Shown here: piece after piece, positions 2,071 to 27,497 of the stretch
Layout of the letters: every line of letters begins with the position of its first letter
How positions within the stretch are numbered: the stretch's first letter is position 1
Origin: Nitrospirota bacterium
GTDB lineage: Bacteria > Nitrospirota > Thermodesulfovibrionia > Thermodesulfovibrionales > Magnetobacteriaceae
Assembly: GCA_015233045.1 (NCBI GenBank)
Contig: JADFYL010000008.1
Span: forward strand, 1 to 38,597
DNA: 38,597 nt
Direction of reading: 5' to 3'
The notes under the pieces: generated by a model
Database searches by the model: none
Told to the model about the DNA's origin: nothing
The model's input: only the letters and a program-made list of their open reading frames with translations
Made by a program: the position numbers and the translations under genes

Positions 2071-3936
2071 TTGACAGGCAAGGCAACAGCTTTGGCGGAT
2101 AAGGCTGCGGCTTTAAATTCCATTTCGGCGGGGGGGGACTCCGCGCCAGGTGGCGGTATTCACATTGAGGTTGACTCGTCGTGGGGCAGGTCGCTCCTTA
2201 AAATGGCCGATGAGCTTATCGGCATATCAAAGGCTACTGAGACAGAGTTTCTTGAGCTTGGGGCGAGTTTGCAGGATTTTTCCTTCGCGTGCATAGAGAA
2301 TTCCTCCATGGCCGGCAATCTCGTAAACGCGATAGAAAGCGGCAGCGGTTTCAATGTGCATTCTCTGAAGGAACTCTTCGAAACGGTTTACAGTGAGATA
2401 GACACTTCCTCTAAACTGATACTTGAAGGTTCCAGGGAAATGAACCTTATCATAGACGACCTGAACAGGGTCATAGATATGGAGGAGTTTTTTAAGAAAC
2501 TGTCTAAGACGATATCCATCATAGGCACATTGATAAGGATAGAGACGGCGCGCGTGGGCAACGCGGAGTTTAATATTATGACAGACTTAGTGGATACGCT
2601 TGCGAGACAGATATTAAAAGGGACAGACGAGATAATCTCATCAGTCAGGACGGCAGACGTGTGCGTGGCAGACGTAAACGACCAGCTTGCGCCATTTATT
2701 GAGACCGCCGACAGGGAACTTGACTCCGTTAAGAGCCGTGTCAGTGTCATTCTTGGAGAGCTTGACGCGATGTCAACACAGGCCAAGTGGCTGTGTGAGA
2801 GGATAAGCAGCAGGGCATATTCTATCTCGCCGGAGGTTGGCGAGGTTGTCGCCTCGATTCAGTTCCATGACATAACGCGCCAACAGATAGAACACGTCTC
2901 AGAGGCCTTTCACGAAATAGAGGCGAAAATCGGGACGTTCGACTCTGAAGACGAAAACGGCAAATTCGTCCTGATAAGGTGGGTAACAGAGGTCATAAAG
3001 ATACAGATAGGCCAGCTTAATTTCGTCCTCAACGAGACACAAAAGGCCGCCGTGACCATCTCCGGCTCTCTGTCGAAGGTGTCAGAGTTGTCAGAGGCGC
3101 AGGCCGAAGACGCCATAACAATAACCGCTGAGGAGGAATCCGGCAATAATAAGATCACACTGGTGGGCACGGCGCTGGATGCCCTCGTTAAGGTTCTGGT
3201 TGCGGTTAATGATATGACGGTAAACCTGCTTGAGTCAATTAAACTGACCAGCACAAACCTTCAGGGGATGACCAGCCAGGTGGCAAACGTCGAATCAATA
3301 AGCGAGAACATGAATCTCCTTGCGATGAACGCGATGATAAAGGTATCTCGCGTGGGGGCTGCCGGAAGGGCGCTTGGGGTTCTCGCCAACGAAATAAGCA
3401 ATCTGTCAGAAAACGCCAACGTCAGGATATCAGACTGCGCGGGGTTGATTAACTCAATACTCAAAAGGTCAGCCCAGATTAAGACATACCTGTCAGAGCA
3501 ACTGCTCTCTCGTTTAGAGACATCAAAGACAGTTGCTGAGCAAACGCGCCAGGCCATTGAGACGGTTATGGAACAGGATAAGGAAGTCATCGCGTCAATG
3601 AATAAGATATCAGCAAGCGCGGCTCAGCTCAAGGTAGACATAGAAAACGTAATAAAAAAAATCAATTTCAGCAACATAATACAATGCACCGTCACTGAGG
3701 TAATAAGTGAGCTTGAGAGAATCCTTGGCGACGTAATGGCCACAATCCCGGGACACATTCACGACGACGTGAACTTCGCGCCTGATCTAAAGGAAATGCT
3801 CAGTAGATATACGATGCAATCAGAAAGGGCAATCCACACAGGTGCCGCGGCTTCGGAGGATGGGGATTCGCTGCTTTGGGGTGAAAGCTGTGCAAAGCCT
3901 GATGATGGGGCAGGCGACAATTTTGAGTTGTTTTAA
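2071..3936 (+). CDS. Soluble MCP-like chemotaxis protein with CheZ-like motif
   Basis: A 621-residue, largely helical protein without membrane segments or signal peptide, so it should be cytoplasmic. Residues about 410-450 (SENMNLLAMNAMIKVSRVGA, then GRALGVLANEISNLSENAN) align with the MCP hairpin tip that binds CheA and CheW. Canonical acidic residues are replaced: AIEAAR becomes MIKVSR, and RAGE becomes RVGA. Residues 263-275 (QFHDITRQQIEHV) resemble the CheZ active-site helix, with D267 and Q271 in D-x-T-x-Q; a degenerate copy (NFSNIIQCTVTEV) occurs near the C-terminus. The frame is closed by a stop at 2053, leaving TTG 2071 or TTG 2092 as starts, both with poor ribosome sites, so the N-terminus is uncertain. 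A G8 run at 2130-2137 lies in the early coding region. It heads the che operon and is probably its dedicated signal input or a CheY-P sink. Confidence 0.7.
   Translation: MTGKATALADKAAALNSISAGGDSAPGGGIHIEVDSSWGRSLLKMADELIGISKATETEFLELGASLQDFSFACIENSSMAGNLVNAIESGSGFNVHSLKELFETVYSEIDTSSKLILEGSREMNLIIDDLNRVIDMEEFFKKLSKTISIIGTLIRIETARVGNAEFNIMTDLVDTLARQILKGTDEIISSVRTADVCVADVNDQLAPFIETADRELDSVKSRVSVILGELDAMSTQAKWLCERISSRAYSISPEVGEVVASIQFHDITRQQIEHVSEAFHEIEAKIGTFDSEDENGKFVLIRWVTEVIKIQIGQLNFVLNETQKAAVTISGSLSKVSELSEAQAEDAITITAEEESGNNKITLVGTALDALVKVLVAVNDMTVNLLESIKLTSTNLQGMTSQVANVESISENMNLLAMNAMIKVSRVGAAGRALGVLANEISNLSENANVRISDCAGLINSILKRSAQIKTYLSEQLLSRLETSKTVAEQTRQAIETVMEQDKEVIASMNKISASAAQLKVDIENVIKKINFSNIIQCTVTEVISELERILGDVMATIPGHIHDDVNFAPDLKEMLSRYTMQSERAIHTGAAASEDGDSLLWGESCAKPDDGAGDNFELF
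2130..2137 (+). repeat. G8 homopolymer tract near the start of the MCP-like gene
   Basis: Eight consecutive G residues fall about 20 codons after the first possible start (codons for S-A-G-G-D). Loss or gain of one G would put the 621-residue frame out of register with all upstream starts. The assembled length keeps frame 1 open. Confidence 0.8.
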
Positions 3937-3992: not shown

Positions 3993-4307
3993 ATGAGTGA
4001 TTTTCAGTTGAGTAAATCAGGGGAGCTGAGAATTTCGGGCGATGTGACAATTATGAATGCCGCGGAGGTGAAAGACGCGGTATTGGGCGCGCTGAAGAAT
4101 TCAAAAAAGGTTACCATAGATATCAATGCTGTCGAGGGAGTTGACTTATCCTTTCTCCAGATATATTTTGCGGCAAGGCACTCGGCTGAGGCGTCGAAAA
4201 AGGAGCTGTCGTTGATAAATCCGCCGGAAGGGTTTTTGAGTTTGATAGAAGACGCCGGGTTTGACCGTTATTTTAATTTCCCGAAATCGGAGGCCGCCAA
4301 TGGCTAA
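3993..4307 (+). CDS. STAS domain protein
   Basis: A 104-residue single-domain STAS protein (anti-sigma-factor-antagonist/MlaB fold). It shows LRISGDVTIMNAAEVKDAVLG, a core strand KKVTIDINAVEGVDLSFLQ, and a terminal LIEDAGFDRYFNF. The D51-L52-S53 segment sits where SpoIIAA-type proteins carry the phosphorylated serine, so phospho-switching is possible. It has a strong ribosome site (aaggaggag) before ATG 3993. Its end overlaps cheY by 8 bp, so the two are translationally coupled. STAS proteins in che clusters may work as small regulatory partners of the array; the partner here is unknown. No anti-sigma kinase is visible in the window. Confidence 0.85.
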   Translation: MSDFQLSKSGELRISGDVTIMNAAEVKDAVLGALKNSKKVTIDINAVEGVDLSFLQIYFAARHSAEASKKELSLINPPEGFLSLIEDAGFDRYFNFPKSEAANG

Positions 4308-4665
4308 GGTAATAATGACAGTAGATGATTCAGCAAGTGTGAGGCAGATGGTTGCCTTTACCCTGAAGGGGGCTGGATATACGGTCGTAGAGGCCGTTGA
4401 CGGCAAGGATGCCCTTGCCAAACTGGCCCAGACGCAGATAAACATGATGATAACTGATTTAAACATGCCAAACCTTGACGGAATAGGCTTGATAAAGGGA
4501 GTGCGTGCAATGCCGGCCTATAAATTCATACCAATAGTGATGCTCACAACCGAATCGCAGGACAGTAAGAAGCAGGAGGGCAAGTCTGCCGGTGCCACGG
4601 GGTGGATAGTAAAACCATTTAAGCCTGACCAACTGTTGGCGGTGGTAAAGAAGGTGCTGGGATGA
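4300..4665 (+). CDS. cheY: Chemotaxis response regulator CheY
   Basis: A 121-residue single receiver domain. All receiver landmarks are present: acidic pair D9-D10, phospho-acceptor D53 (MMITDLNMPNLDG), T83 in VMLTTES and K105 in VKPF. It has no output domain, so it should diffuse to the flagellar switch after phosphorylation by CheA. ATG 4300 is chosen because ggagg lies 7 bp upstream and the family begins with M-A-K-x-I-M-x-V-D-D. An upstream in-frame start at 4261 would add 13 unrelated residues inside the STAS gene. The stop overlaps the cheA start (ATGA), indicating coupled translation. Confidence 0.95.
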   Translation: MAKVIMTVDDSASVRQMVAFTLKGAGYTVVEAVDGKDALAKLAQTQINMMITDLNMPNLDGIGLIKGVRAMPAYKFIPIVMLTTESQDSKKQEGKSAGATGWIVKPFKPDQLLAVVKKVLG

Positions 4666-6821
4666 GCGGCGAAGACGATGGTTTAGACGCAGGACGTGAG
4701 GCATTTAAGGAGGAGGCCGCCGAGCTCCTGACAGAGCTGGAGACATCCCTCTTAGAGCTTGAGGAACACCCAACCGATGAGGATTTGATAGGGCGCGTGT
4801 TTCGCGCCATGCACACGGTAAAAGGCTCAGGGGCGATGTTCGGATTTGACGACATAGCCGAATTCACACACGAGGTGGAGACGGCCTTTGATATGGTCAG
4901 AATGGGAAAACTTGCCGTCACTAAGGAACTGACAAACCTGACACTTCGTGCCCGCGACCAGATTCGCACGATGATAGAGGCCTCTGAGGGCAAGGCAACC
5001 GTTGACCACAGCGTCTCTAAGTCCATAATAGGCTCCCTGCAGCTTTTGACAAAGGGTGGGTCTGCTAAGGCGGCAGTACAGGAAGTCGAAGAGGTCTCAG
5101 CAAAAAAACCATCTAAGACCGCGTCAGCAGACGGTTCCCACTCAATTACATATCGAATAAGATTCAAACCCGCCTCTGACCTTTTCATAACGGGGACGAA
5201 CCCGATATTGCTGCTCAATGAGCTGCGCCAGATGGGAAGCTGCATGGTGATAGCCCAAACGGACGCCATCACGCGCCTTGAGGAATTCAACCCCGAGACG
5301 TGCGCGACATACTGGGACATCATCCTGACGACCACTCATAGCGCTAATGCCATAAAAGATGTGTTTATATTTGTTGACGACATGTGTGAATTACATGTCG
5401 AGGTGGTTGATGAGGAAGGGGAATACGACGAGGACGAAGGGTACATGAAACTCGGCGAGATATTGGCGGCGCGCGGCGACGTCAAGGTGGACGAGTTAAA
5501 AAAGCTCCTGGGCAAGCAGAAAAAAGTCGGAGAGATACTGGTTGACGCCGGGATTGTGGACAGTGGGCACATAGAATCGGCCCTCGCTGAACAGCAGCAC
5601 ATAAAGGAAGTCCGCGAACAGCGGCAGAAAACAGCCGACGGCGCGGCAAGCATAAGGGTGCCATCGGAAAGGCTTGACAAGCTCGTTGACCTTGTTGGGG
5701 AGCTTGTTACAGTGCAGGCAAGGTTGAGCCAGACAGCGGCCATAAACGGTGAGGTCTTGCTTACCTCCATAGCCGAAGAGGTGGAGCGTCTTACGTGGGA
5801 ACTGAGAGACGGCACGATGAGCATCAGGATGCTTCCCATAGGGACGACATTCAGCAAGTTTAAGAGGCTGGTGCGCGACCTTTCCAATGATTTGGGCAAA
5901 GAGATACAGATGACCACAGACGGGGCTGAGACCGAGTTAGATAAGACGGTCATAGAGAAACTCAACGATCCGCTTGTGCATATAATAAGAAACAGCATAG
6001 ACCACGGTGTGGAAAGGCCCGATGTAAGAGAGGCCGCCGGGAAACCCAGAATGGGCACTGTGCATTTGTCGGCGGGGCATTCGGGTGCGAACGTCCTGAT
6101 AAAGATAGAAGACGACGGGGCAGGGCTGGACAAAGAGAGAATATTAAAGAAGGCGATAGATAACGGCCTCGTGGCGCCGGATGCCGAGCTGTCGGAGAAG
6201 GAGATATTCGGGATGATATTTGCTCCGGGTTTTTCTACCGCCGCAAAGGTAACAAACGTATCGGGGCGAGGCGTTGGGATGGATGTTGTAAAGAAAAACA
6301 TAGACGCCCTGCGCGGCATCGTAGAGGTAAAGAGCAAAAAGGGTGCGGGGACGACTATCACGCTGCGTCTTCCCCTGACGCTTGCCATAATAGATGGTCT
6401 ACTGGTGAAGATAGCCGATGAGGTTTTTGTTATTCCTCTGGCGGTTGTTGAGGAATGCGTGGAGCTGAGCAAAAAAGATATTGAAAGGACGCACGGCAGG
6501 CATGTCTCAAACGTGCGCGGTGTCCTGATACCGTACATAAGACTTAGGGAGCATTTCCTTATTGACGCCGAAGAGCCGGAGATGGAGCAGATAGTTATAA
6601 CCGAGGTTGAAGACAAAAAGGTGGGCTTTGTTGTAGACTACGTCATAGGAGAGCATCAGACAGTAATAAAGACACTGGGAAGGGTTTTTAAGGACATAGA
6701 GGGGGTCTCGGGGGCGACCATACTGGGCGACGGCACGGTGGCCCTGATTATGGACATCCCCAGTCTGGTACGTTCTGTGGCAAGACACGAGCCGACGGTG
6801 GCAGACACTGTGGGCGTTTGA
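4662..6821 (+). CDS. cheA: Chemotaxis histidine kinase CheA with an MshEN-like insert
   Basis: A 719-residue CheA that autophosphorylates and passes phosphate to CheY and CheB. Domains in order: HPt at 1-110 with phosphorylated H51 (AMHTVKGSG); a P2-like alpha/beta domain at about 160-250; an unusual insert at 263-311; P3 dimerisation helices at about 335-400; HATPase at about 400-570 with N box (IIRNSIDHG, N444), G1 (DDGAGLD, 485-490), F box (FAPGFS) and G2 (GRGVGMD); and a CheW-like P5 domain from about 575 to the end. The insert holds two consecutive 24-residue motifs (KLGEIL...Q and KVGEIL...Q) that match the MshEN/GspE-N pattern. It overlaps cheY by 4 bp. The kinase looks fully active; the insert may bind a nucleotide second messenger. 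Confidence 0.95.
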   Translation: MSGEDDGLDAGREAFKEEAAELLTELETSLLELEEHPTDEDLIGRVFRAMHTVKGSGAMFGFDDIAEFTHEVETAFDMVRMGKLAVTKELTNLTLRARDQIRTMIEASEGKATVDHSVSKSIIGSLQLLTKGGSAKAAVQEVEEVSAKKPSKTASADGSHSITYRIRFKPASDLFITGTNPILLLNELRQMGSCMVIAQTDAITRLEEFNPETCATYWDIILTTTHSANAIKDVFIFVDDMCELHVEVVDEEGEYDEDEGYMKLGEILAARGDVKVDELKKLLGKQKKVGEILVDAGIVDSGHIESALAEQQHIKEVREQRQKTADGAASIRVPSERLDKLVDLVGELVTVQARLSQTAAINGEVLLTSIAEEVERLTWELRDGTMSIRMLPIGTTFSKFKRLVRDLSNDLGKEIQMTTDGAETELDKTVIEKLNDPLVHIIRNSIDHGVERPDVREAAGKPRMGTVHLSAGHSGANVLIKIEDDGAGLDKERILKKAIDNGLVAPDAELSEKEIFGMIFAPGFSTAAKVTNVSGRGVGMDVVKKNIDALRGIVEVKSKKGAGTTITLRLPLTLAIIDGLLVKIADEVFVIPLAVVEECVELSKKDIERTHGRHVSNVRGVLIPYIRLREHFLIDAEEPEMEQIVITEVEDKKVGFVVDYVIGEHQTVIKTLGRVFKDIEGVSGATILGDGTVALIMDIPSLVRSVARHEPTVADTVGV

Positions 6822-7363: not shown

Positions 7364-8239
7364 ATGGCAAACGATTATGATGACGTAAGACGCGAAGCGG
7401 CGGTTTTGTCTGACAAGGTATTTCGCCGTCTGAGTGAGTTTGTGCAAGACGAAGTGGGCATAAAAATGCCCCCCGCGAAAAAGACGATGCTTGAAGCTCG
7501 CCTGCAGAGGAGGCTTCGCAAGCTTGGCATCGGTTCATTTGAACAGTACAGCGATTACGTATTCAGTCCAAAGGGCACCGAAAGCGAATTGGTTCATATG
7601 ATAGACGCGGTGACTACGAACAAGACAGATTTTTTTCGTGAGCCAAATCATTTTGACTATTTAACGAGGCACGCCCTTCCTACGCTTATCGAAAGCACGG
7701 GGGCGGGGGCAATGCGTCCGCTGATGCTCTGGAGCGCCGGTTGCTCAACAGGTGAGGAGCCTTATACGCTCACAATGGTGCTAAGCGAATTTGCGGAGAA
7801 GGCACCCGGTGGGCGGTTCAACTTCACTATAATCGCAACAGATATTTCCACAAAGGTGCTGGGCATAGCAAAAGAGGCAATATACGACGAGGAGAAGATA
7901 CAGCCGGTAGCGATGCCGCTGAGGAAGAAATATCTACTCAAAAGCAAAGACAGTAAGAAGCAGCTCGTGCGCATTGTGCCTGAGCTGAGGCGTAGTGTAA
8001 TATTTCGCAGGCTGAACTTCATGGATGACGACTTTGGATTTAGAGAGACGATGGACATAGTATTCTGCAGAAACGTGGTAATATACTTCGATAAACCTAC
8101 GCAGGAGCGGCTTCTTACGAAGTTCGCAAAGTACTTGCAACCTGGCGGCTATCTGTTCATGGGGCATTCGGAGACAATCGGGGGTTTAAATGTGCCATTT
8201 TCGCAGGTGGCTCCGACCATATACAGGGTCAGGAAATGA
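7364..8239 (+). CDS. cheR: Chemotaxis protein methyltransferase CheR
   Basis: A 291-residue SAM-dependent methyltransferase that methylates glutamates of chemoreceptors. The N-terminal all-helical CheR-N domain covers about 15-75. The catalytic domain shows TTNKTDFFREPNHF (about 84-97), the SAM-binding LWSAGCSTGEEPYT (122-135), IIATDIS and the C-terminal FCRNVVIYFD with QPGGYLFMGHSET. No TPR or pentapeptide-tethering extension is present. The gene follows cheW by 11 bp and its stop overlaps cheD by 4 bp (ATGA). Together with CheB and CheD it gives a full adaptation system. The receptor it modifies may be encoded elsewhere, since the linked MCP-like protein has an unusual tip. Confidence 0.94.
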   Translation: MANDYDDVRREAAVLSDKVFRRLSEFVQDEVGIKMPPAKKTMLEARLQRRLRKLGIGSFEQYSDYVFSPKGTESELVHMIDAVTTNKTDFFREPNHFDYLTRHALPTLIESTGAGAMRPLMLWSAGCSTGEEPYTLTMVLSEFAEKAPGGRFNFTIIATDISTKVLGIAKEAIYDEEKIQPVAMPLRKKYLLKSKDSKKQLVRIVPELRRSVIFRRLNFMDDDFGFRETMDIVFCRNVVIYFDKPTQERLLTKFAKYLQPGGYLFMGHSETIGGLNVPFSQVAPTIYRVRK

Positions 8240-8754
8240 AATTTACAGAGATGGGATTGCCGCTGGTGTTTCTCAAACCAGGCGAGGTCTATGTAACCGA
8301 GAAACCGGCGCTGGTGAAAACGGTGTTGGGGTCATGTGTATCAATAACGATGTTTGAACCCATGCGGCGTGTTGCCGCCATATGCCACGGTATGCTTCCC
8401 GACTGCGGAGGAAAGGGCTGCGGTGATTGCCCTGAGAAACTAAAATATGTTACGTGTTCCATAAAATATATTATGAATAAGATGCAGGACAAGGGTGTAA
8501 ACACCAGGGACATTGAGATAAAGGCCTTTGGCGGAGGCGACGTCCTCACGTATAGAAATTATGACGCCAGGGCAACGGTGGGAAGGCAAAATATAGACGC
8601 GGCGCTGGGAATCCTCGAGGCCCTCGGCCATAAGCCGAAGACCTCTGACCTTGGCGGCGACAGAGGGCGCAAGATTTTTTTTAACACACAAACTGGCGAG
8701 GTTCTGCTCAGAAAATTGAGGAAGACCGCGGTGGAGTGTGTCAGGGTAACTTAA
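8236..8754 (+). CDS. cheD: Chemoreceptor glutamine deamidase CheD
   Basis: A 172-residue CheD that deamidates receptor glutamines and often interacts with CheC-type phosphatases. The catalytic cysteine C34 lies in TVLGSCVSITMFEP and the catalytic histidine H51 in AAICHGMLP; this Cys/His pair with 17-residue spacing is the family signature. Downstream IKAFGGGDVL and the GRQNI motif also fit. Between them is an extra Cys-rich loop, C57, C62, C65 and C74 (CGGKGCGDCPEK), which could bind metal and is seen in only part of the family. It overlaps cheR by 4 bp. No cheC or cheX accompanies it in the window. Confidence 0.92.
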   Translation: MKFTEMGLPLVFLKPGEVYVTEKPALVKTVLGSCVSITMFEPMRRVAAICHGMLPDCGGKGCGDCPEKLKYVTCSIKYIMNKMQDKGVNTRDIEIKAFGGGDVLTYRNYDARATVGRQNIDAALGILEALGHKPKTSDLGGDRGRKIFFNTQTGEVLLRKLRKTAVECVRVT

Positions 8755-8761
8755 TGGGTAA

Positions 8762-9859
<1,098 letters not shown>

Positions 9860-9912: not shown

Positions 9913-10638
9913 GTGCTAATTTATACCACTATGGAAGATGTCGAAACCAAAGTCTCCGAGCCGGTTGCCCCTGGGCCGGTTGTCCCTGAGCCGGTTGTCC
10001 CTGAGCCGGTTGTTCCCGCATCCGCTATCGCCACGCCCGCTGAGAGGCGGTCATATTTGAAAATTATGGCGAAGGCGGCACCGGATAATTGGTTTAAGGG
10101 TTTCCTTAAGAAGGTGTTTTTTGTTGAAATCCTCCAGGGGATGTCCCTGACGATGTCCTATATGTTCAAAAAGCCTGTCACAAGGCAATATCCAAAGGAA
10201 AAACGAGAATCAATGCCGGGCTTCAGGGGGATGCACGCCCTCGTCAGAAAACCCCTTACGCGCAGGGCGCGGTGCGTGGGCTGCGGGTTATGTGCCGCCA
10301 TATGTCCCTCTAAGTGTATCACGATATATACGTCCGAGGGGAAGACCCATGAAAAAGTGGTTGACCGGTATGAGATAGAGATTTTAAGATGCCTGTTCTG
10401 CGGGTTATGTGTCGAGGCGTGCCCGTTTCAGGCTATCGTGCTGACCGGACATTACGAATACGCCGACTCCTCAAAGGAGTCCTTTCGTCTGACCAAAGAA
10501 AAACTGATGGACAATTGGGACAAATACATGACCGACGAAAAGGGCAAGTTCTATTTTAAGAATTTTTGGGCGCCAAGGAAAAGCCATTTTGAGACCCCAC
10601 CTGACCAGGCCGTTTTTAAAGGCGGACAGGTGCGATGA
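9913..10638 (+). CDS. NuoI-type 2x[4Fe-4S] ferredoxin with Pro-rich N-terminal extension
   Basis: A 241-residue protein closely resembling complex I subunit NuoI. It has LQGMSLTMSYMFKKPVTRQY, FRGMHALVR and two [4Fe-4S] cysteine sets, CVGCGLCAAICPSKC and CLFCGLCVEACPF, then AIVLTGHYEYA. NuoI normally carries clusters N6a and N6b from the Fe-S arm to quinone. No other nuo gene is nearby, so this is an orphan or extra copy. The N-terminus adds about 45 residues with four Val-Val-Pro-Glu-Pro-like units. GTG 9913 has a purine-rich site upstream (gagggtagggcgg); ATG 9931 is the alternative. Its stop overlaps the hemerythrin start (ATGA), so the pair is made together. An electron-transfer role is likely; the partner is unknown. 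Confidence 0.82.
   Translation: MLIYTTMEDVETKVSEPVAPGPVVPEPVVPEPVVPASAIATPAERRSYLKIMAKAAPDNWFKGFLKKVFFVEILQGMSLTMSYMFKKPVTRQYPKEKRESMPGFRGMHALVRKPLTRRARCVGCGLCAAICPSKCITIYTSEGKTHEKVVDRYEIEILRCLFCGLCVEACPFQAIVLTGHYEYADSSKESFRLTKEKLMDNWDKYMTDEKGKFYFKNFWAPRKSHFETPPDQAVFKGGQVR
9958..10017 (+). repeat. Four 15-bp tandem repeats (Pro-Glu-Pro-Val-Val units)
   Basis: Four near-identical 15-bp units (gagccggttgtccct and variants) encode a Pro/Val-rich linker in the NuoI-like protein. Changes in copy number would keep frame. Confidence 0.85.
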
Positions 10639-11033
10639 GCTTTCAGTGGACTGAGAACCTGGCCGTAGGCGTTGAGCTTATGGACGAGCAGCACAAGGAG
10701 CTGTTTCAGAGGGTGAACGCCTTTGTCGAGGCGGTAGCGCAGAACAAGGAGAGCGTTTTTGTCGAGGAGCTTATAAAAAATCTTGAGAGTTATATTGAGA
10801 CCCATCTGACCCTTGAAGAGACATACATGAAGCAGTACGACTACGACGAAGAGGACACAGAGGCTCACCAAAAGCAGCACAAAACCCTAAGGACAAACTT
10901 TCAAAGGCTAAAAACAGAATACCAACGAAAAGGCTCAAGCAAGGATTTAAACCAAAAACTACAAGAGCACCTCTGCAATTGGCTTGTAACCCACGTCAGT
11001 AAAATTGATAAGAAACTCGGCGATTATTTGTAG
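10635..11033 (+). CDS. Bacteriohemerythrin
   Basis: A 132-residue single-domain hemerythrin that binds O2 at a non-haem di-iron centre. All seven ligands can be placed: H20 (MDEQH), H57 and E61 (THLTLEE), H78 and H82 (AHQKQH), H120 and D125 (VTHVSKID). The N-terminal WTENLAVGVELMDEQH is the classic family start. Such proteins store, deliver or sense O2 or NO in microaerophiles, and many are fused to MCPs. The coding frame starts inside the stop of the NuoI-like gene, which indicates a joint function, perhaps O2 protection or delivery for an Fe-S redox protein. The gene ends 77 bp before a convergent minus-strand operon; no clear terminator is visible between them. Confidence 0.95.
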   Translation: MSFQWTENLAVGVELMDEQHKELFQRVNAFVEAVAQNKESVFVEELIKNLESYIETHLTLEETYMKQYDYDEEDTEAHQKQHKTLRTNFQRLKTEYQRKGSSKDLNQKLQEHLCNWLVTHVSKIDKKLGDYL

Positions 11034-18754: not shown

Positions 18755-18807
18755 ATCGTTGAGGGAAGACATTATAGATAAATACCACTAACAGAGAGGG
18801 ATTGAAG

Positions 18808-21800
18808 ATGCTGACAACGACAAAAAGACATACACACAGAGTATCCTGCCGCAGTGTAAACAATTTAAAAAGGGGGCTTTATCTGGTAAGTCTGTTGTTT
18901 TTGACGGCGTTTTTGTTATTCGCGGCACATCCTGCCGAGGCCCACTGGACGGTGGATGTGTGTAAAACCGGGGCTGGCGGCGGCAACGTAGCCCAAGCTA
19001 TGAATAATGGTTCTCAGTCCGGCGCAGAGTCCACCTGTTCAAATCCCTGTACGAACTGCTGTGCCGGCAATATTGCCAGCGTCTATTGCTTTCAGTACTC
19101 AGGGAGCAGCGGTGTCACTGATGTAACTCTGACTGCGACAGCGAACTCTGGAAGCACATTCGCGGGCTGGACGGCCTGCGGCGGACAGTCAAATAACTGT
19201 GACGCCGGCACATGTAATTGGAATGGCTGTAATGGAACAGGTACCTGTCATAACGTATATTCTAATAGTAATTCTTATTGTATCTCCGCCGCGTTTAACA
19301 GCAATGCGACCACAACTACCACCACGGCAAGCACCACTACGACCACGGCGGCGACCTCGACTACAACCTCCACTACATCTTCGACGACCTCCACTACGAC
19401 CACGTCTATCTCCGCAACCAACTCGTCCATGTCCAATTATTGTAACGGTACCTCTACCCCTCCATTTATGGGCGCGAGTGTATCGCCACTTCTCATGCTT
19501 GATATATCAAAAGACCACAAGAACAGTTATAAGGCCTATAACGACTACAGCGATCTCAACGGCGATGGAACGGTTGAGACACAGTACACAGGAAGCATTA
19601 CATACTACGGTTATTTCGATCCAACTAAGTGTTACACATACTCGGGAGGTACCACTAGTTCATATACGAATTCGGCGTACTATTTCTCACCTTCCTATGT
19701 GTCGTCCACCACTCCGGCCACATGTAACGGCAGCACATGGAGCGGGAATTTTTTGAACTGGGCTACCATGTCGCGAATGGACGTCCTCAGAAAGGTACTT
19801 TATGGGGGATATAGAGTAACGGATACCGCGACTTCGACAATACTACAAAGACAATTTCTCCCGCAGGACGCCCATAGCTGGGCAAAGATATATACCCCCG
19901 GCACAGGGGATCCTACGATAAGCCAGTTGACGCCCTTGCCGAACACCGCCAGTATTACCATTTGTAATACAACGGTGGCCGCCTCGACAAATCCCCCCGC
20001 TATGCGTGTTGCCAGCGGTTCATGGCCATACTGGGCATCGGATGAAAGGTGGCAGTGTGCGAGGGCTGGAGAATATAACAACGGCGCTCAGTGGGAAGTA
20101 AGGCGTGCCCCCGCGGCAACCGGCGGTTACATGGACTATATAGTGCAAGTGCAGGTCTGTAACTCATCCTTAATTGGAAGCGAAAGGTGCCAGTTGTATC
20201 CAAGCGGCAACTATAAGCCAATCGGCCTATTGCAGGCCTACGGCGAGAGTTCGAAAATGTACTTCGGGCTTATGACCGGCAGTTGGATAAAGAATAAATC
20301 CGGTGGGGTGCTGCGCAAAAACATCGGCCCGATTACAAACGAAGTAAACTATACGACCGATGGGACATTTTGCATAAATAGCCACGGCACCGCCAACACG
20401 GCCTGCGTTACGAGTACAGGAGTTCCGGGTATTATTGATACGCTGAACAAGATAAAGATCTACAGGTACAACTATGGTTCAGGTTGGAGTGACGGCACGT
20501 ATAATACTAACGACGCCTGCTCATGGGGAAACCAGAGTTTTACTGAATCATCAGGCGGCACCTGTACCAACTGGGGAAATCCCATAGCCGAGATATATTA
20601 TGAATCCCTGAGATACTTTATGGGAAAGACCACGCCCACGTCGGCATTCAGCACTGATGACAGCTCTATCGTCACAGGGCTTAGTCCAGTTACATGGCAA
20701 GACCCCTACGCGACATATCCATATTGTGCCAAGCCGTTTATCATGGTTATAAGCGACGTGGCCCCAAGTTTTGACTCCGACCAGCTTCCCGGAGTAAACA
20801 GCAATTTTGGAAGCGGGCTGACGGCAGATATAGGAGTCAACGGTACCCTTCTTAATGTCGCCACACAGACCGACATAGTAGGGGGAAGCGCTAACGGAGG
20901 GGAGAATGTATCGGGGAATTATTTTATCGGTCAGTCCGGTTCGACAAACGATACGATAAGCGGCGTCACAACCAATATATGTACAAGTAAGAATGTTAGC
21001 TCGTTGTCATCTTTAAGGGGCCTTTGCGCTACCGCCCCGAACTTTCAGGGATCGTATTACCTTGCCGGTCTTGCCTATTGGGCGCACATCAACGACCTGA
21101 GAAGCTCCGGCAATACTCCTAATAACGCCATCACAGGCGATAATGTTACCCAGAACGTTACTACTTATTCCATAGCCCTGAGTACCACACTTCCGAATTT
21201 GACTCATAAGGTGGGTTCATCTGGCCAGTACAGTATTAATTTCATTCCTGCATGCTACAACAGCTCGAATGGCAATCCCTGTACGCTGGTCAATTTTATT
21301 ATTGACAGCAACGCCACCATCTGTACAAACCCTCCTTCCGGTACCGTCCTAGGTCGTTATTTCATAACATGGGAGGACTCACCCCAGGGAGGAGACTACG
21401 ACATGGACGCCGACGGTTGTTTGTACATTACCGCTAATAACGCGGTAAATCCTCCCACTGTTACTTTTTCGACCACTATGACCGGCAGTTCCACACCCTT
21501 TAATATGAACATGGGTTATATAGTAAGCGGCACAACTACCGATGGCCCCCACTACCTGGCTACGAACTGTAACAGCAGCTCCGCTACCCCAAATACCGGC
21601 CTGCTTGCCAGTGGGAACTGTGGGGTTAACTTTACGACAGTTCCGTCTGCCTCAGGCACTCCCCCCACTAACAACGCTAATATAGGTTCTTTAACTCACA
21701 CCGTTAATACCTCTGCCTCTACTGTTAAGCTCCTGAACGACCCGCTCTGGTATGCCGCTAAGTGGGGCGGCTTCACAGACAGCAACAGCAACAATATGCC

Positions 21801-24339
21801 CGACAATACAACTGAGTGGACAACCGGCGTCAACGGCACGGGCGTTCCAGACAACTACTATCTGGTCACTAATCCTTCAACGCTTGAGACGCAGCTTGAA
21901 ACGGCCTTCCTTAAGATTCTCAAGCAGACATCCTCCGGCACCGCCGCGACGGTTCTTTCACAGAGGACACAGGCCGGTGCCAATATCATGCAGGTACTTT
22001 TTTACCCGAACAAGTACTTTACCGGCAACACCGAGATTTCATGGGTTGGCTATCTCAACAATCTCTGGTTTTACAACACCAGCTCAGTACAGGAAATCAG
22101 GGAAGACACGGTTAACGACTTCAAGTTAAATCTCACAAACGACAATGTCATAAATTTTTCGGTTGTGAACAACAACCCCATCATCCAACTGTATAGCGAC
22201 ACAACCGGTTCCGGTACCCTGACCTCGCTGACGCCATCTACCGAGACCTTCGATACCCTCAACACTATTTGGGAGGCGGGAGGAAACAGCCGCGACCCAT
22301 CAAGTTTAAACAGCACCACTACGGCTTACACAGGTAATTTTTATGATTTGTACCATGACAACGCCACAGTGAGGACGATATATGGAAACGGCAGCAGCGG
22401 CCTCGCACTGTTCAATACAAGTAACGCGAGCCAGTTCAGCTCATACATGGGCACCACAATGGTCGCGTCGGCTACCGTGAACGATATAATAAACTATACC
22501 CGCGGGATTGACAAGGCGGGGCTTAGAAACAGGACTACCGCGAATCAGGGCTTTAGTGCACTGAACGTATGGAAACTGGGCGATATTGTTTACTCGACTC
22601 CTTTTTTACAGCAGTACACGCCGTCTTCCAGTAACGGCAACGCCGACTACTGGGTGGCCTATGTGGGTGCCAACGATGGAATGCTCCACGCCTTTAAGGC
22701 TGGCAAACTCTCCACCAGTGGCCTTGGCGCCGGCGAAGTAGAGCAATTAAGTGGCTCAGGCCTCGGCCAGGAACTATGGGGGTTCATTCCGAGGAACTCT
22801 CTGCCCTATCTGCGCTACCTGGCAGACCCCTCCTATTCGCCAAACTCAGGCTGCCACATATATTTTAATGACCTCAAGCCCTATGTATATACCTACACAC
22901 CAACTGGCGCGTCCGCTCAGAAGGTAGTCCTGATAGGCGGAATGCGTTTGGGCGGGGGATGTGGATGCGGCGGCGGCACCTGCCCCGCGAACACAGACGT
23001 ATATACCCCTCCAAGTGATACGTGTTCCACCGCTAATCGCACTGACACTACGTCGCCGATGAGCGCCTGTGTCGGCCTATCCTCGTACTATGCCCTTGAT
23101 GTTACTAATCCAACATCGCCGACCTTACTGTGGGAATTTTCTCATCCCCAACTGGGTTTCTCCTACTCAGGCCCTGCGGTTATAAACAGGGGCGGGAATT
23201 TGATGGTCATGTTTCTCTCAGGGCCGCAGACGTATACTGGCCGCTCATATCAGGATTTACAGACCTTTACCCTGGCCTTAAACAATGACTTTACGATAAA
23301 CTCCACCGCGACTGGCAGCAGTGGCGGCGTATATAAGTACGACACGGGTATCGCACGCGCCTACGGAGGCAGATTATTTACCACAGGGCTTGATGTTAAC
23401 GGCGACGGCAATACCGACTGGGTTGTGTTTGGCTACTCCTCGGCCACAGACAATACATGGAGCAATGTCTCTGGCGGGCTTATGTCAGTTTATACCGGCG
23501 CGGCAACTCCTCCTACATCCTCCGCCGCGACATGCAGTGGAAACGCGTGCCCAAGCGGCCATTGGTCAAACTGCTGGGGTTACAACACAAGTTACTTCAA
23601 CCTGTACGGCCCTATTACCAGCAAGGTGGAGATTGATAAGTGCTTTAGTCAATACTATGTCTTCGCTGGGACGGGAAAATACTTTACCTCGCTGGATTCA
23701 TACAATGTGGTTAACGGTGGCGGGACTGTACTTTCGGGAGACTTCCTGTATGGTTCTCCATTTAACTGTGATCAGAACGGGTGCTGTGACAACACTACCG
23801 TAACTCAGCTTTCGAACTCCACCGTGCCCAATACGTGTAACTCGCTTACCGGCACTTCCAAAAAGCCTTCATGGACAGTCCCGCTTGATGCCCCGGAGAC
23901 TGTCAATAGCATATCATATTTAGGTGAGCGTGATATATCTGACCCGGTGTTTACCTCCAATATGATCTTCTTTACCACCACACAGCCTACATCGGACGTG
24001 TGTTCTTTTGGAGGCAGGTCAAGGGAAATGGTCTTCAACTGCGCGACGGCGGCGGCTCCAGGCTCTGCCCTTGATAACTGTACAGGCTATACAATCCCCA
24101 CGTCAACTTTGCAGGGGACATTGTTTATGCAGCTTTCCACAAGCGCGATAACCAAGATTTCTGTAAAAACCGGGTTCCATACGTTAGGCTCCAGCGATAC
24201 AAACCAATCCTCGCTGCAGACTAACCCCATGGGCGCTGTCACAACATGGATGCCTGGAATAGCCCCCGAATCGAGCACCCCTTACACGGCGCCATCTTCC
24301 AGCGCGTTTGGGAAGGTACTGAATTGGATGGAGAGGTGA
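18808..24339 (+). CDS. pilY1: PilY1-type pilus tip adhesin
   Basis: A very large (1843-residue) secreted protein that should prime, cap or tip the type IV pilus. ATG 18808 is chosen over TTG 18802 because agagaggg is 7 bp upstream. A signal peptide (about 1-45, hydrophobic YLVSLLFLTAFLLFAA, cleavage after AEA) is followed by a Cys-rich domain (46-165) with VTLTATANSGSTFAGW, which resembles divergent InlB B-repeats, then a Thr-rich linker (168-199). The PilC/PilY1 part shows SPLLMLDISKDHKNSYKAYN, DLNGDGTVE (about 249) and FLNWATMSRMDVLRKVLYGG. The C-terminal beta-propeller has WVAYVGANDGMLHAFKAG and a calcium-type loop DVNGDGNTDW (about 1529). Many cysteines imply periplasmic disulfides. It leads the minor-pilin operon. 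Confidence 0.93.
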   Translation: MLTTTKRHTHRVSCRSVNNLKRGLYLVSLLFLTAFLLFAAHPAEAHWTVDVCKTGAGGGNVAQAMNNGSQSGAESTCSNPCTNCCAGNIASVYCFQYSGSSGVTDVTLTATANSGSTFAGWTACGGQSNNCDAGTCNWNGCNGTGTCHNVYSNSNSYCISAAFNSNATTTTTTASTTTTTAATSTTTSTTSSTTSTTTTSISATNSSMSNYCNGTSTPPFMGASVSPLLMLDISKDHKNSYKAYNDYSDLNGDGTVETQYTGSITYYGYFDPTKCYTYSGGTTSSYTNSAYYFSPSYVSSTTPATCNGSTWSGNFLNWATMSRMDVLRKVLYGGYRVTDTATSTILQRQFLPQDAHSWAKIYTPGTGDPTISQLTPLPNTASITICNTTVAASTNPPAMRVASGSWPYWASDERWQCARAGEYNNGAQWEVRRAPAATGGYMDYIVQVQVCNSSLIGSERCQLYPSGNYKPIGLLQAYGESSKMYFGLMTGSWIKNKSGGVLRKNIGPITNEVNYTTDGTFCINSHGTANTACVTSTGVPGIIDTLNKIKIYRYNYGSGWSDGTYNTNDACSWGNQSFTESSGGTCTNWGNPIAEIYYESLRYFMGKTTPTSAFSTDDSSIVTGLSPVTWQDPYATYPYCAKPFIMVISDVAPSFDSDQLPGVNSNFGSGLTADIGVNGTLLNVATQTDIVGGSANGGENVSGNYFIGQSGSTNDTISGVTTNICTSKNVSSLSSLRGLCATAPNFQGSYYLAGLAYWAHINDLRSSGNTPNNAITGDNVTQNVTTYSIALSTTLPNLTHKVGSSGQYSINFIPACYNSSNGNPCTLVNFIIDSNATICTNPPSGTVLGRYFITWEDSPQGGDYDMDADGCLYITANNAVNPPTVTFSTTMTGSSTPFNMNMGYIVSGTTTDGPHYLATNCNSSSATPNTGLLASGNCGVNFTTVPSASGTPPTNNANIGSLTHTVNTSASTVKLLNDPLWYAAKWGGFTDSNSNNMPDNTTEWTTGVNGTGVPDNYYLVTNPSTLETQLETAFLKILKQTSSGTAATVLSQRTQAGANIMQVLFYPNKYFTGNTEISWVGYLNNLWFYNTSSVQEIREDTVNDFKLNLTNDNVINFSVVNNNPIIQLYSDTTGSGTLTSLTPSTETFDTLNTIWEAGGNSRDPSSLNSTTTAYTGNFYDLYHDNATVRTIYGNGSSGLALFNTSNASQFSSYMGTTMVASATVNDIINYTRGIDKAGLRNRTTANQGFSALNVWKLGDIVYSTPFLQQYTPSSSNGNADYWVAYVGANDGMLHAFKAGKLSTSGLGAGEVEQLSGSGLGQELWGFIPRNSLPYLRYLADPSYSPNSGCHIYFNDLKPYVYTYTPTGASAQKVVLIGGMRLGGGCGCGGGTCPANTDVYTPPSDTCSTANRTDTTSPMSACVGLSSYYALDVTNPTSPTLLWEFSHPQLGFSYSGPAVINRGGNLMVMFLSGPQTYTGRSYQDLQTFTLALNNDFTINSTATGSSGGVYKYDTGIARAYGGRLFTTGLDVNGDGNTDWVVFGYSSATDNTWSNVSGGLMSVYTGAATPPTSSAATCSGNACPSGHWSNCWGYNTSYFNLYGPITSKVEIDKCFSQYYVFAGTGKYFTSLDSYNVVNGGGTVLSGDFLYGSPFNCDQNGCCDNTTVTQLSNSTVPNTCNSLTGTSKKPSWTVPLDAPETVNSISYLGERDISDPVFTSNMIFFTTTQPTSDVCSFGGRSREMVFNCATAAAPGSALDNCTGYTIPTSTLQGTLFMQLSTSAITKISVKTGFHTLGSSDTNQSSLQTNPMGAVTTWMPGIAPESSTPYTAPSSSAFGKVLNWMER
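19309..19404 (+). repeat. Thr-rich low-complexity linker in pilY1
   Basis: About 32 codons, nearly all ACN (Thr) with some Ser and Ala, join the N-terminal Cys-rich module to the PilY1 body. The imperfect ACC/ACT/ACG repetition makes it prone to in-frame length change. Confidence 0.85.
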
Positions 24340-24351
24340 CGAGGATAACTT

Positions 24352-25023
24352 ATGATTACTAATAATGATAATAGAGGCTTCACCCTTGTGGAGGTCATGG
24401 TGGTAGTGGCGATTATGGGTGTAATCGCGGGGTTGCTTGTGTATCAGATGGCCGGTCAGAAGGCGAAAAGCAACTCCGAGGCATCGGTAAAGCAGATGTA
24501 CTCTGACTTGTCCGAGATGCGGGCTGACGCTATGTCGCAAAAGAACGCGTTTGGAGCTTTTTTGACTGGCACCGCCACCGCCAATTTCAGCTTCACAAGC
24601 TATGCGTTGCGTTCGGATAACGACAGTGATGGTTCCATTACGGACACTGGCGGCTTTGCCACAGTGCGAACGACCACACTGTCACAGCTTGCCCCACTGA
24701 CGGTGTTAAACTCGATTACGGACATAACCTATGATAACAAGGGCTTTTTGTCAACCGCCAGCCCTGTAGAAATTTACGCGCCATGCCCTGGCTGCGATGC
24801 CGGTTCAGTGTCTGGCTGCAAAGGCGCATACGAAAACACTGCCTGTACATCTGCCACGGCTACGAGCTGCTGCAGGATGGCGGATATGTCAACAAATTGT
24901 AGTGACGCCTCGTATCCAGAGTTCTCCTGTCTTGTCCTGACGGTGAATTTTATAAAAATGGGAAAGTGGTGTGACGCAAACCAAAATGGAGTGTATGACA
25001 GTGGCGAATGTGTCCTTAAATAA
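24352..25023 (+). CDS. FimT/GspH-type minor pilin
   Basis: A 223-residue class-III-signal prepilin. The leader MITNNDNRG is cleaved before F10 (GFTLVEVMVVVAIMGVIAGL), with the +5 glutamate (E14) and a hydrophobic N-helix. The C-terminal region has several cysteine pairs (CPGCDAGSVSGCKGAYENTA, SCCRM) that would form disulfides. The position straight after pilY1 and before PilV/W/X-type genes identifies it as a FimT/GspH-like initiator. It begins 12 bp after the pilY1 stop. The next gene starts inside its 3' end in another frame. Confidence 0.85.
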   Translation: MITNNDNRGFTLVEVMVVVAIMGVIAGLLVYQMAGQKAKSNSEASVKQMYSDLSEMRADAMSQKNAFGAFLTGTATANFSFTSYALRSDNDSDGSITDTGGFATVRTTTLSQLAPLTVLNSITDITYDNKGFLSTASPVEIYAPCPGCDAGSVSGCKGAYENTACTSATATSCCRMADMSTNCSDASYPEFSCLVLTVNFIKMGKWCDANQNGVYDSGECVLK

Positions 25024-25498
25024 GGGTGTTCTTTCAGACAGCCCGGTTTCCAACGGCGAGGGCTTTACCCTTGTGGAGGCGATGGTCTCGATGTTGATTC
25101 TGATGGTAGTGGTGCTTGGGATGATTCAGACGATGATTTACGTAAACGCGATAAACCTGAAAAATGATGTAAGAGAAGAGGCCGTCAAAATAGGCCAGCA
25201 GGACATAGACAATCAAACGCGCCTCGTAAGGCCGTCAACGGCCTTAAATACTATCATCCTGTCAACCACTACGCCAGTTGCAATCATCAGGCATTTTAAT
25301 AACAGGGATATTACGTTTAATTTATGCAGATATGTCACTCCCAGAGGTAACAGCGTGGAAGTCAGCATCTCTGTCATATGGCAGCTTGGCGAGACAAACG
25401 CAACCGCCAATGACCCAACGGGGTATAGTTGCTTTAACGGCATGACATACACTGGTTCATACAATGTCGAAACTATAATAAGTCCATTGGTAGGGTGA
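24995..25498 (+). CDS. pilV: PilV-type minor pilin
   Basis: A minor pilin of about 167 residues with the prepilin signal GEG|FTLVEAMVSMLILMVVVLGM, including the +5 glutamate, and a leader of about 22 residues. PilV proteins join a minor-pilin priming complex at the pilus tip. The start is uncertain: GTG 24971, ATG 24986, ATG 24995 and GTG 25010 are all in frame and overlap the FimT-like gene. ATG 24995 is used because ggag lies just upstream. The stop overlaps the next gene (GTGA). Only a few cysteines are present. The family name rests on signal type and gene order. Confidence 0.78.
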   Translation: MTVANVSLNKGVLSDSPVSNGEGFTLVEAMVSMLILMVVVLGMIQTMIYVNAINLKNDVREEAVKIGQQDIDNQTRLVRPSTALNTIILSTTTPVAIIRHFNNRDITFNLCRYVTPRGNSVEVSISVIWQLGETNATANDPTGYSCFNGMTYTGSYNVETIISPLVG

Positions 25499-25500
25499 TT

Positions 25501-26832
25501 ATGAGGATTGCATTGTTGAGGAAAATATTGGGCGGCAACGCTGGGTTCACAATCGCTGAGCTTCTCGTGTCAATGTTGATTGTCTCTATTATGATGGGGG
25601 CGATTTTTGCGTCCTTTACCACTTTGACCAGCTCCTTCAAGATTCAGACCAAGACCGCCGAATCACAGATAGAAGATGTCCTTGGCCTGGAGTTGTTAAG
25701 ATACGACCTTGAATCAGCGGGTTACGGGCTACCGGAAGGAACCGGAGGCGGGTCATGCTCGACCATTACGGCCTACAGCGAGTACCCAACCGGTTTCACT
25801 CCAACCGGCAGCACTAACTTCACACCCAATCAATATACACCTGACCCTGCCACTGACTTCAACGACTCTACAAGCAGTTGTGAGCCGCGCCCGATAGTCC
25901 TTGACCATAACACCAACCCCACGCCGTCCAATTCCAATGGTTCGGACGTCTTGGTCGTCAAGTCCATAACGGCCGACAGGACGGCGGTTACCAAGAAGTG
26001 GACAATGCTTGACGCCTCCAGCCACTACATTAAATGGAACGATTCAACTTGGGACCTTGGTACAACCACTCCATCCGATAGGGCAATAGCAGTGACCTCC
26101 ACACGCCAATTGGTCAGCAACGGCGGCAATTTTCAGTATGGCCTTGCAACAGGCGGCACGGCAAGTGCAACGACCACGTATCTGCCAACAACCCCCGCGG
26201 CTGGGAATTTCTATGTCATATACGGGGTGAATTCAACGACCAACCTTAGAATGCCTTTTAATCGCGTAGATTACTATCTCCAGAGGGGGGGGACATCTGC
26301 GCCGCACCCCTATCCACTGCAGTGCAACCCCGGCGGATATACCCTCTATAGAGCTGTCCTGTCCCACTCAAACGGCCAGAGGGTGGAACAGCCCATCATG
26401 GACTGCGTCATAGATTTTCAGGTTGCCCTCGGCATAGACACCGGCTGCACAGACACACTTGGCAGTGGCTGCACAGGTACCCTGACATGGTGCAGGTTTA
26501 CAAATTTAACTTCAAACACGGCAAGTTTGACTCCGTGTAATTCTACCAGCGACGCCGGTTGCACCAACGACCCATGCCACCTGACTACCAGTTATTTAAA
26601 TAATGCGCAGAGTATAAGAAGATATCTGAAGCAGGTTAAGGTTTTTGTCCTCACGCATGAAGGTAAAATTGACCCGAATTTCACGTACGCCAACAATTCG
26701 ATAGTCATAGGCGACAGCGACATAACTCTGAAGACATATGATCTTACGACACTGACCAACTATGCCAATTACAGATGGAAGTTGCAGAAAATCAACGTAA
26801 AATTAAACTCTTTAGGAGGAAACTACGAATGA
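25501..26832 (+). CDS. pilW: PilW-type minor pilin
   Basis: A 443-residue minor pilin with the signal GGNAG|FTIAELLVSMLIVSIMMGA and the +5 glutamate. The body begins with a helical segment, SQIEDVLGLELLRYDLESAGYG, typical of PilW, then a long beta-rich, Cys-containing region. At more than 400 residues it fits large PilW proteins that interact with PilY1. ATG 25501 follows tagggtg by 5 bp; GTG 25495 would overlap the previous stop and add two residues. The 3' end overlaps pilX by 4 bp (ATGA). Confidence 0.83.
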   Translation: MRIALLRKILGGNAGFTIAELLVSMLIVSIMMGAIFASFTTLTSSFKIQTKTAESQIEDVLGLELLRYDLESAGYGLPEGTGGGSCSTITAYSEYPTGFTPTGSTNFTPNQYTPDPATDFNDSTSSCEPRPIVLDHNTNPTPSNSNGSDVLVVKSITADRTAVTKKWTMLDASSHYIKWNDSTWDLGTTTPSDRAIAVTSTRQLVSNGGNFQYGLATGGTASATTTYLPTTPAAGNFYVIYGVNSTTNLRMPFNRVDYYLQRGGTSAPHPYPLQCNPGGYTLYRAVLSHSNGQRVEQPIMDCVIDFQVALGIDTGCTDTLGSGCTGTLTWCRFTNLTSNTASLTPCNSTSDAGCTNDPCHLTTSYLNNAQSIRRYLKQVKVFVLTHEGKIDPNFTYANNSIVIGDSDITLKTYDLTTLTNYANYRWKLQKINVKLNSLGGNYE

Positions 26833-27497
26833 TAATAAAATTTTCTCCAAAGAAGGCACCGAAACTTGACGAGAGGGGTTTTATTCTCGTAATAACGATG
26901 GTTCTAGCTATGGTTGCTCTGGCATTAAGCGGTGCCATGCTGTTTATGGCTACAATTGGCACGAAGATTGCGGGGGGATATCAGCGTTACACCAGCACAA
27001 TATCTGCCGCCAGAGGGGCGTCAGATGTGGCTATGAGTTTATTGAAGAATTCTATGAGCAGCACCACCCCTGATTACGGCACAGTTTCGACCACTTATCC
27101 CAGTTGCCTTGCCACGAAACTCAATACGGCTACGTGTCTAAGCGCCCCTGCCACGGGCACGCAATGCGTCGGTGGTTCGGGGACGACATACTACCAATGG
27201 GGAGGTACCTGCGATACATACGCCAACGCCACCAGTACCAACGCCGCGGTAGACCCTGATGTGACAACCACATACAATGACGCTCGGACAAATTCCCCTG
27301 CCTATACAGTCTATACGAAGATAATAAATACACAAGCGATTATAGGGGCGGTAACAGCCCCTGGTGCGTGTAACTGTAATGCCTGTACCTACTGTTACGT
27401 ATATACTGTGCTTGTCCTTTCCCAAAATATCAACACTCCCGAAAACTCAATTGTTACTTTCACATATATGGTGTACGACGGCAATAATATTGATTAA
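26829..27497 (+). CDS. pilX: PilX-type minor pilin
   Basis: A 222-residue PilX_N-type protein. Its N-terminus reads DERG|FILVITMVLAMVALALSGAM, a prepilin-like helix without the +5 glutamate, which is usual for PilX. The conserved GGYQRYTSTISAARGASDVA follows, and the C-terminal part has Cys pairs (CNCNACTYC). ATG 26829 is preceded by a strong site (aggaggaaac) and lies in the pilW stop. A longer frame from 26775 would run through that site and is rejected. The gene ends 5 bp before the convergent MORN gene, so the two messages overlap at their 3' ends. Confidence 0.82.
   Translation: MIIKFSPKKAPKLDERGFILVITMVLAMVALALSGAMLFMATIGTKIAGGYQRYTSTISAARGASDVAMSLLKNSMSSTTPDYGTVSTTYPSCLATKLNTATCLSAPATGTQCVGGSGTTYYQWGGTCDTYANATSTNAAVDPDVTTTYNDARTNSPAYTVYTKIINTQAIIGAVTAPGACNCNACTYCYVYTVLVLSQNINTPENSIVTFTYMVYDGNNID

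Follow-up and report, generated by a model that had tools for sequence, protein, structure and literature searches.

The CheA chemotaxis kinase encoded in the window, by which we mean the whole 38,597-nucleotide stretch of Nitrospirota DNA analyzed here, contains an insert in front of its P3 domain that, judged from its sequence, is almost certainly homologous to the c-di-GMP-binding half of the MshEN domain. The insert is probably a c-di-GMP sensor on CheA and may act through the CheA dimer. The cheA gene and its surroundings are laid out as follows; cheR, cheD and cheB are named from sequence only.

4303..4665, + strand: cheY (Response_reg, Pfam), directly upstream of cheA
4662..6821, + strand: cheA, 719 aa (Pfam domains)
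5118..5432, + strand: P2-like domain, CheA residues 153-257, between P1 and the insert (conservation)
5448..5519, + strand: motif I, CheA residues 263-286, KLGEILAARGDVKVDELKKLLGKQ (NF053729 match)
5520..5522, + strand: spacer of one residue, K287; almost every homologue has K or R here
5523..5594, + strand: motif II, CheA residues 288-311, KVGEILVDAGIVDSGHIESALAEQ
5595..5636, + strand: predicted extension of helix 4 in the direction of P3, residues 312-325, joined with the last part of motif II into a single long helix
6858-7352, + strand: cheW (Pfam)
7364-8239, + strand: cheR
8236-8754, + strand: cheD
8786-9859, + strand: cheB

Apart from the insert, CheA is ordinary and its domains are intact. 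The Hpt, H-kinase_dim, HATPase_c and CheW matches all lie above the Pfam cut-offs and follow the expected CheA order, and the P1 motif HTVKGSG and the P4 motif GRGVGMD are readable in the protein. Hpt occupies residues 13-108, the P2-like domain residues ~153-257, the MshEN_N-like insert residues 263-311, and P3 residues 329-388, followed by HATPase (436-573) and a CheW-like domain (579-705). These positions agree with the original prediction, which had placed the insert between P2 and P3. The P2-like domain is well kept across several phyla. It has no Pfam match in the window protein and a weak Pfam P2 match in 1 of 26 P2-like members, and a profile of P2-like domains found no relative in the PDB.

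Window positions 5448-5594 translate exactly to CheA residues 263-311, which read KLGEILAARGDVKVDELKKLLGKQ-K-KVGEILVDAGIVDSGHIESALAEQ. The translation bears out the two adjacent 24-residue motifs that had been proposed, K263-Q286 and K288-Q311, and all positions named at that time are correct (K1, L/V2, G3, L6, L/I17, L21 and Q24). Both motifs also contain Gly10, which the original prediction had not listed and which is needed for the turn between helices of the MshEN motif according to PMC5013675. The extended MshEN consensus (R/K/L)LGxx(LVI)(LVI)xxG..LxxxLxxQ (PMC11731258) is satisfied by both motifs, with conservative deviations at V2 and I17 in motif II and at A7 and D11 in motif I. A motif pair with a spacer of 1-7 residues occurred in none of 20,000 shuffles of CheA, and the expected number is ~1e-8.

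Profile comparisons relate the insert to the N-terminal half of MshEN. The NCBIfam model NF053729 (c-di-GMP_motif), whose 53 positions make up the binding unit, spans CheA residues 263-311 over its full length with an E-value of 3.1e-6 for the whole protein. On the isolated CheA segment, the E-value is 1.4e-8 and the score of 34.3 bits is slightly under the curated cut-off of 38 bits. The same model matches every one of 44 homologous inserts (best E-value 1.2e-14). When a profile of the inserts was searched against the PDB, all 13 matches with an E-value below 0.001 were PilF, MshE or PilB chains, the best being PilF (3e-18), and MshE (5htl) was matched at 5.9e-7. An hhalign comparison between the inserts and seven canonical MshEN units of the bacterium's own genome gave a probability of 98.3 and an E-value of 1.1e-14 over 49 columns, and the sole gap in this alignment, of four residues, lies exactly at the spacer. 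Pfam reported nothing above its cut-off on the insert segment, and PF05157, the C-terminal subdomain, was absent from CheA. The lack of a Pfam match on the segment carries little weight, because PF05157 begins at residue 53 to 60, past both motifs, in three genuine MshEN proteins from this genome. The profile check that had been suggested against PF05157 gave no match and is not decisive, whereas NF053729 does match; we rejected PF05157 as an arbiter of the insert, since the motif region lies outside it.

A survey of CheA homologues, also suggested earlier, found the insert with its one-residue spacer conserved in ~110 CheAs from several phyla (Nitrospirota, Geobacterales, Desulfobulbales and SAR324). 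A whole-CheA search of 60 related genomes returned 30 loci, one of which (L038) is without the insert. With the insert plus P3 as the query, 80 loci were found in named genomes, including Nitrospirae (Ca. Magnetobacterium, Magnetominusculus and Magnetomicrobium), Geomonas, other Geobacterales/Desulfuromonadales, Desulfobulbus, SAR324 and others; the closest named records are Nitrospirae MAGs and Ca. Magnetominusculus, which makes the host bacterium a relative of magnetotactic Nitrospirota. Matches across insert and P3 were counted among those listed in 82 of 198 genomes of the host's phylum and, at an E-value below 1e-25, in 22 of the 148 genomes of the Geomonas phylum sample, counts that give no rate of CheA without the insert because the insert was part of the query.

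Position conservation was assessed in 68 inserts that share less than 80% identity. G3 is present in 100% of both motifs, L6 in 100% of motif I and 84% of motif II, L21 in 93% and 99%, and Q24 in 81% and 100%, respectively, with Gln24 of motif I lost in 13 of the 68. Position 1 is basic (K/R) in motif I of 67 inserts (99%); in motif II it is R/K in 51 and P in 12, and Leu in some. The ligand-contact positions rank among the best-conserved in the inserts, and most of these conserved positions correspond to residues that touch c-di-GMP in MshE, according to PMC5013675. Invariants specific to the insert, ERGD and SALxEQ, are found as well.

The insert is an MshEN_N-derived variant and not a standard MshEN domain. 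Its spacer is one residue, compared with five in the canonical 53-residue unit, including the canonical MshEN proteins of the same genome. One-residue spacers were scored in 108 of 111 distinct inserts and a nine-residue spacer in one; two inserts missed by the scorer (L097 and L173) also have one residue by eye. Of 100 close members, 99 carry K or R at the spacer. We looked for the canonical spacer of five residues and for the C-terminal subdomain and found neither in the insert, so we do not class it as standard MshEN. We note that the bacterium's genome encodes another CheA (656 aa frame; G000:C177:9556-10950, - strand; L011/L012) with a weaker pair, PVGEILVERGSVTTEEVDDALKIQ ... KVGDILAATEKVSKEEVKKALSKQ, separated by 13 residues, so that spacer length differs between CheA types within one genome. 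A 325-residue frame elsewhere (G000:C115:18733-19053, + strand; L008/L010) apparently contains four tandem 24-residue motifs with five-residue spacers.

AlphaFold predicted the isolated insert with a mean pLDDT of 90.4 and four helices (7-14, 19-28, 32-38 and 44-67 in model numbering), which match MshEN helices 1 to 4, helix 4 running on towards P3. When the insert was modeled together with P3, the pLDDT was ~50 for the insert and >90 for P3; this model was left out of claims about the fold, as the insert is poorly ordered in it. A Foldseek search with the insert monomer against 350,542 PDB chains returned MshE with c-di-GMP (5htl) as the best match, which is not significant (E-value 2.8, TM 0.39, rmsd 11.3 Å) for this ligand-free monomer model. 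Of the proposed overlay on MshE, the helices at MshEN positions were thus recovered and the superposition was not. In these predictions the four MshEN helices are present and the monomer fails to close like MshE, and the earlier caution that a one-residue spacer may prevent the fold was justified. There are three options: closure of the unit by the ligand, sites shared between both chains of the CheA dimer, or a fold that has drifted and lost binding. As a whole, the likeness to MshEN holds for a relation to the binding half (profile, profile-profile, PDB-sequence and conservation) and does not extend to the five-residue spacer, the C-terminal subdomain or superposition on MshE.

The insert has Lys at position 1, where MshEN has Arg. 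Lys1 is also present in the tightest known binders, namely PilF GSPII-B (KD 6 nM) and two PilB proteins or homologues (KD 13.5 and 53 nM), and changing Lys1 of PilF GSPII-B to Arg weakened c-di-GMP binding (PMC11731258). The difference pointed out in the original prediction is therefore harmless or even favorable on these affinities, and we rejected it as a bar to binding. In PilF GSPII-A, binding required a restored Gln24 and position 1, high affinity required Gly3, and Ile in place of Leu at positions 17 and 21 cost little (PMC12002112). The C-terminal subdomain is dispensable, because engineered variants of PilF residues 9-65, which consist of the N-terminal half alone, bind c-di-GMP, one such construct at 0.7 µM (PMC12002112). 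Ligand-induced folding was observed for the truncated PilF domain. Since the residues of the CheA insert satisfy these PilF/PilB binding rules, the insert should be binding-competent if its geometry allows.

The likeliest reading, which we consider probable, is that the insert binds c-di-GMP and controls CheA. Signaling by c-di-GMP is present in the organism, as its genome (73.6% complete) contains 21 GGDEF matches and 8 PilZ matches, together with several canonical MshEN proteins. We infer the binding, the direction of its effect and its biological role; the basis is the motif pair, the homology to MshEN_N, the conservation, the intact CheA domains, the four-helix prediction and the diguanylate cyclases of the genome. 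Several observations speak against this reading: the short spacer, the missing C-terminal subdomain, the Foldseek match without significance, the low pLDDT of the insert when modeled with P3, the NF053729 score under the cut-off, and the homologues that lack Gln24 in motif I or have Pro or Leu at position 1 of motif II. In the proposed mechanism, the insert would be a compressed relative of the N-terminal c-di-GMP-binding half of MshEN, located within the P2-P3 linker of CheA, and its two half-site motifs would together bind one c-di-GMP. The guanines would be stacked by the basic residue 1, Leu/Val2 and the hydrophobic residues 17 and 21, the main chain at positions 3 (Gly) and 4 would read the Hoogsteen edge, and the ribose-phosphate would be held by Gln24. 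On binding, the four helices would become ordered or shift position. Because helix 4 extends towards P3, such a change would affect the linkage between P2 and P3 or the dimer, and would thereby raise or lower phosphotransfer to CheY at high c-di-GMP. If this is true, CheA would carry a receptor module through which the swim-versus-settle messenger sets the gain of the entire pathway.

A rather unlikely alternative is that the insert derives from MshEN_N and no longer binds c-di-GMP, serving as a structural linker or as a docking site for CheY, CheW or a receptor. The spacer, shortened to a single residue in almost every member, the insert model that does not superpose on MshE, and the invariants ERGD and SALxEQ, which suggest a different constraint, would fit such a role, and the family can lose binding, as described for XpsE and PilF GSPII-A in PMC5013675 and PMC12002112. 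However, the non-binding GSPII-A has both Gln and one Gly replaced (PMC12002112), whereas the Gln24 polar contacts and Gly3 of the inserts have been kept over several phyla.

It is also possible, and we think unlikely, that a site is formed by motif I from one CheA subunit and motif II from its partner, so that the dimer held by P3 would bind c-di-GMP between its two chains. The strictly kept one-residue spacer would not let a single chain wrap around the ligand, the model of the isolated monomer has high confidence yet is not MshEN-shaped, the insert adjoins the P3 dimerization helices, and c-di-GMP itself has two-fold symmetry. A one-residue link might nevertheless close within one chain, because in MshE one and the same half of the ligand is contacted by both Gln24 (motif I) and Leu2 (motif II), according to PMC5013675. 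As pairing across the dimer is a sub-case of direct c-di-GMP sensing, the probabilities that we assign to the two overlap. The broader statement that a widespread CheA subfamily directly senses c-di-GMP through a compressed MshEN_N unit closing only across the dimer is less likely still; if true, the second messenger would be a co-ligand of the CheA kinase dimer itself. Finally, a chance likeness or a low-complexity helical linker, with which the lack of a Pfam match above the cut-off would agree, is very improbable, as the shuffles and the analytic expectation, the NF053729, PDB-profile and hhalign results, the conservation over ~110 proteins and the fact that PF05157 leaves the motif region uncovered all oppose it, and a chance origin of the motif pair is excluded at the sequence level by the shuffles, profiles and conservation.

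Several known systems come close to a CheA insert that would sense c-di-GMP. The MshEN domain of MshE (Vibrio cholerae, 5HTL) and the GSPII domains of Thermus PilF likewise have two 24-residue motifs in which the same positions are conserved, significant profile matches to the insert, and four helices in the order predicted for it; Lys at position 1 is shared with PilF GSPII-B. The insert differs from them in its one-residue spacer instead of five, the absence of the PF05157 C-terminal subdomain, its P2-P3 location inside CheA, and a monomer model that is not superposable. The MshEN-CheA combination is not wholly new, as Wang et al. 2016 named CheA among the MshEN-fused proteins in one phrase pointing to a supplementary table; the domain combination is the same, and the main text gives no spacing, binding or function (PMC5013675). 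A literature search covering few subscription journals returned no report of c-di-GMP binding to CheA, of an experiment on MshEN-CheA or of the compressed form. The routes by which c-di-GMP is known to reach chemotaxis involve either adaptor proteins, MapZ for example, or the motor. MapZ-CheR1 of Pseudomonas aeruginosa resembles the present case in bringing c-di-GMP input to chemotaxis, but MapZ is a separate PilZ adaptor on the methyltransferase and not part of CheA, as described in PMC10519070 and PMC7288161. In CckA, c-di-GMP likewise acts directly on a histidine kinase, but it binds at the CA domain, a different site and fold, and CckA is not a chemotaxis kinase, according to PMC7288161. 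The insert-bearing subfamily is present in cultured Geomonas and in magnetotactic Nitrospirota, which puts the question within reach of work on a single purified domain.

In 71 of the 80 named loci, a cheY gene resembling the one in the window lies in the flank, which makes this a conserved chemosensory cluster. In the window, a small two-CW domain protein (1550-1894, + strand; NF045718, E-value 9e-16) lies between the flagellar and chemotaxis genes. An MCP-like protein (2071-3936, + strand) has its signaling domain at residues 383-531 and, N-terminal of it, a weak CheZ match below the cut-off (E-value 0.0007) around SIQFHDITRQQ; the protein may be a receptor that contains a CheZ-like segment. 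Directly after cheB, a NuoI-like ferredoxin and a bacteriohemerythrin are encoded (9913-11033, + strand), and a hemerythrin beside chemotaxis genes hints at oxygen sensing. Further downstream, a 1845-residue protein within 18802-27497 (+ strand), PilY1-like by the look of its sequence, which is all that its name is based on, is followed by prepilin-like ORFs, and this region apparently encodes a cluster of type IV pilus minor pilins.
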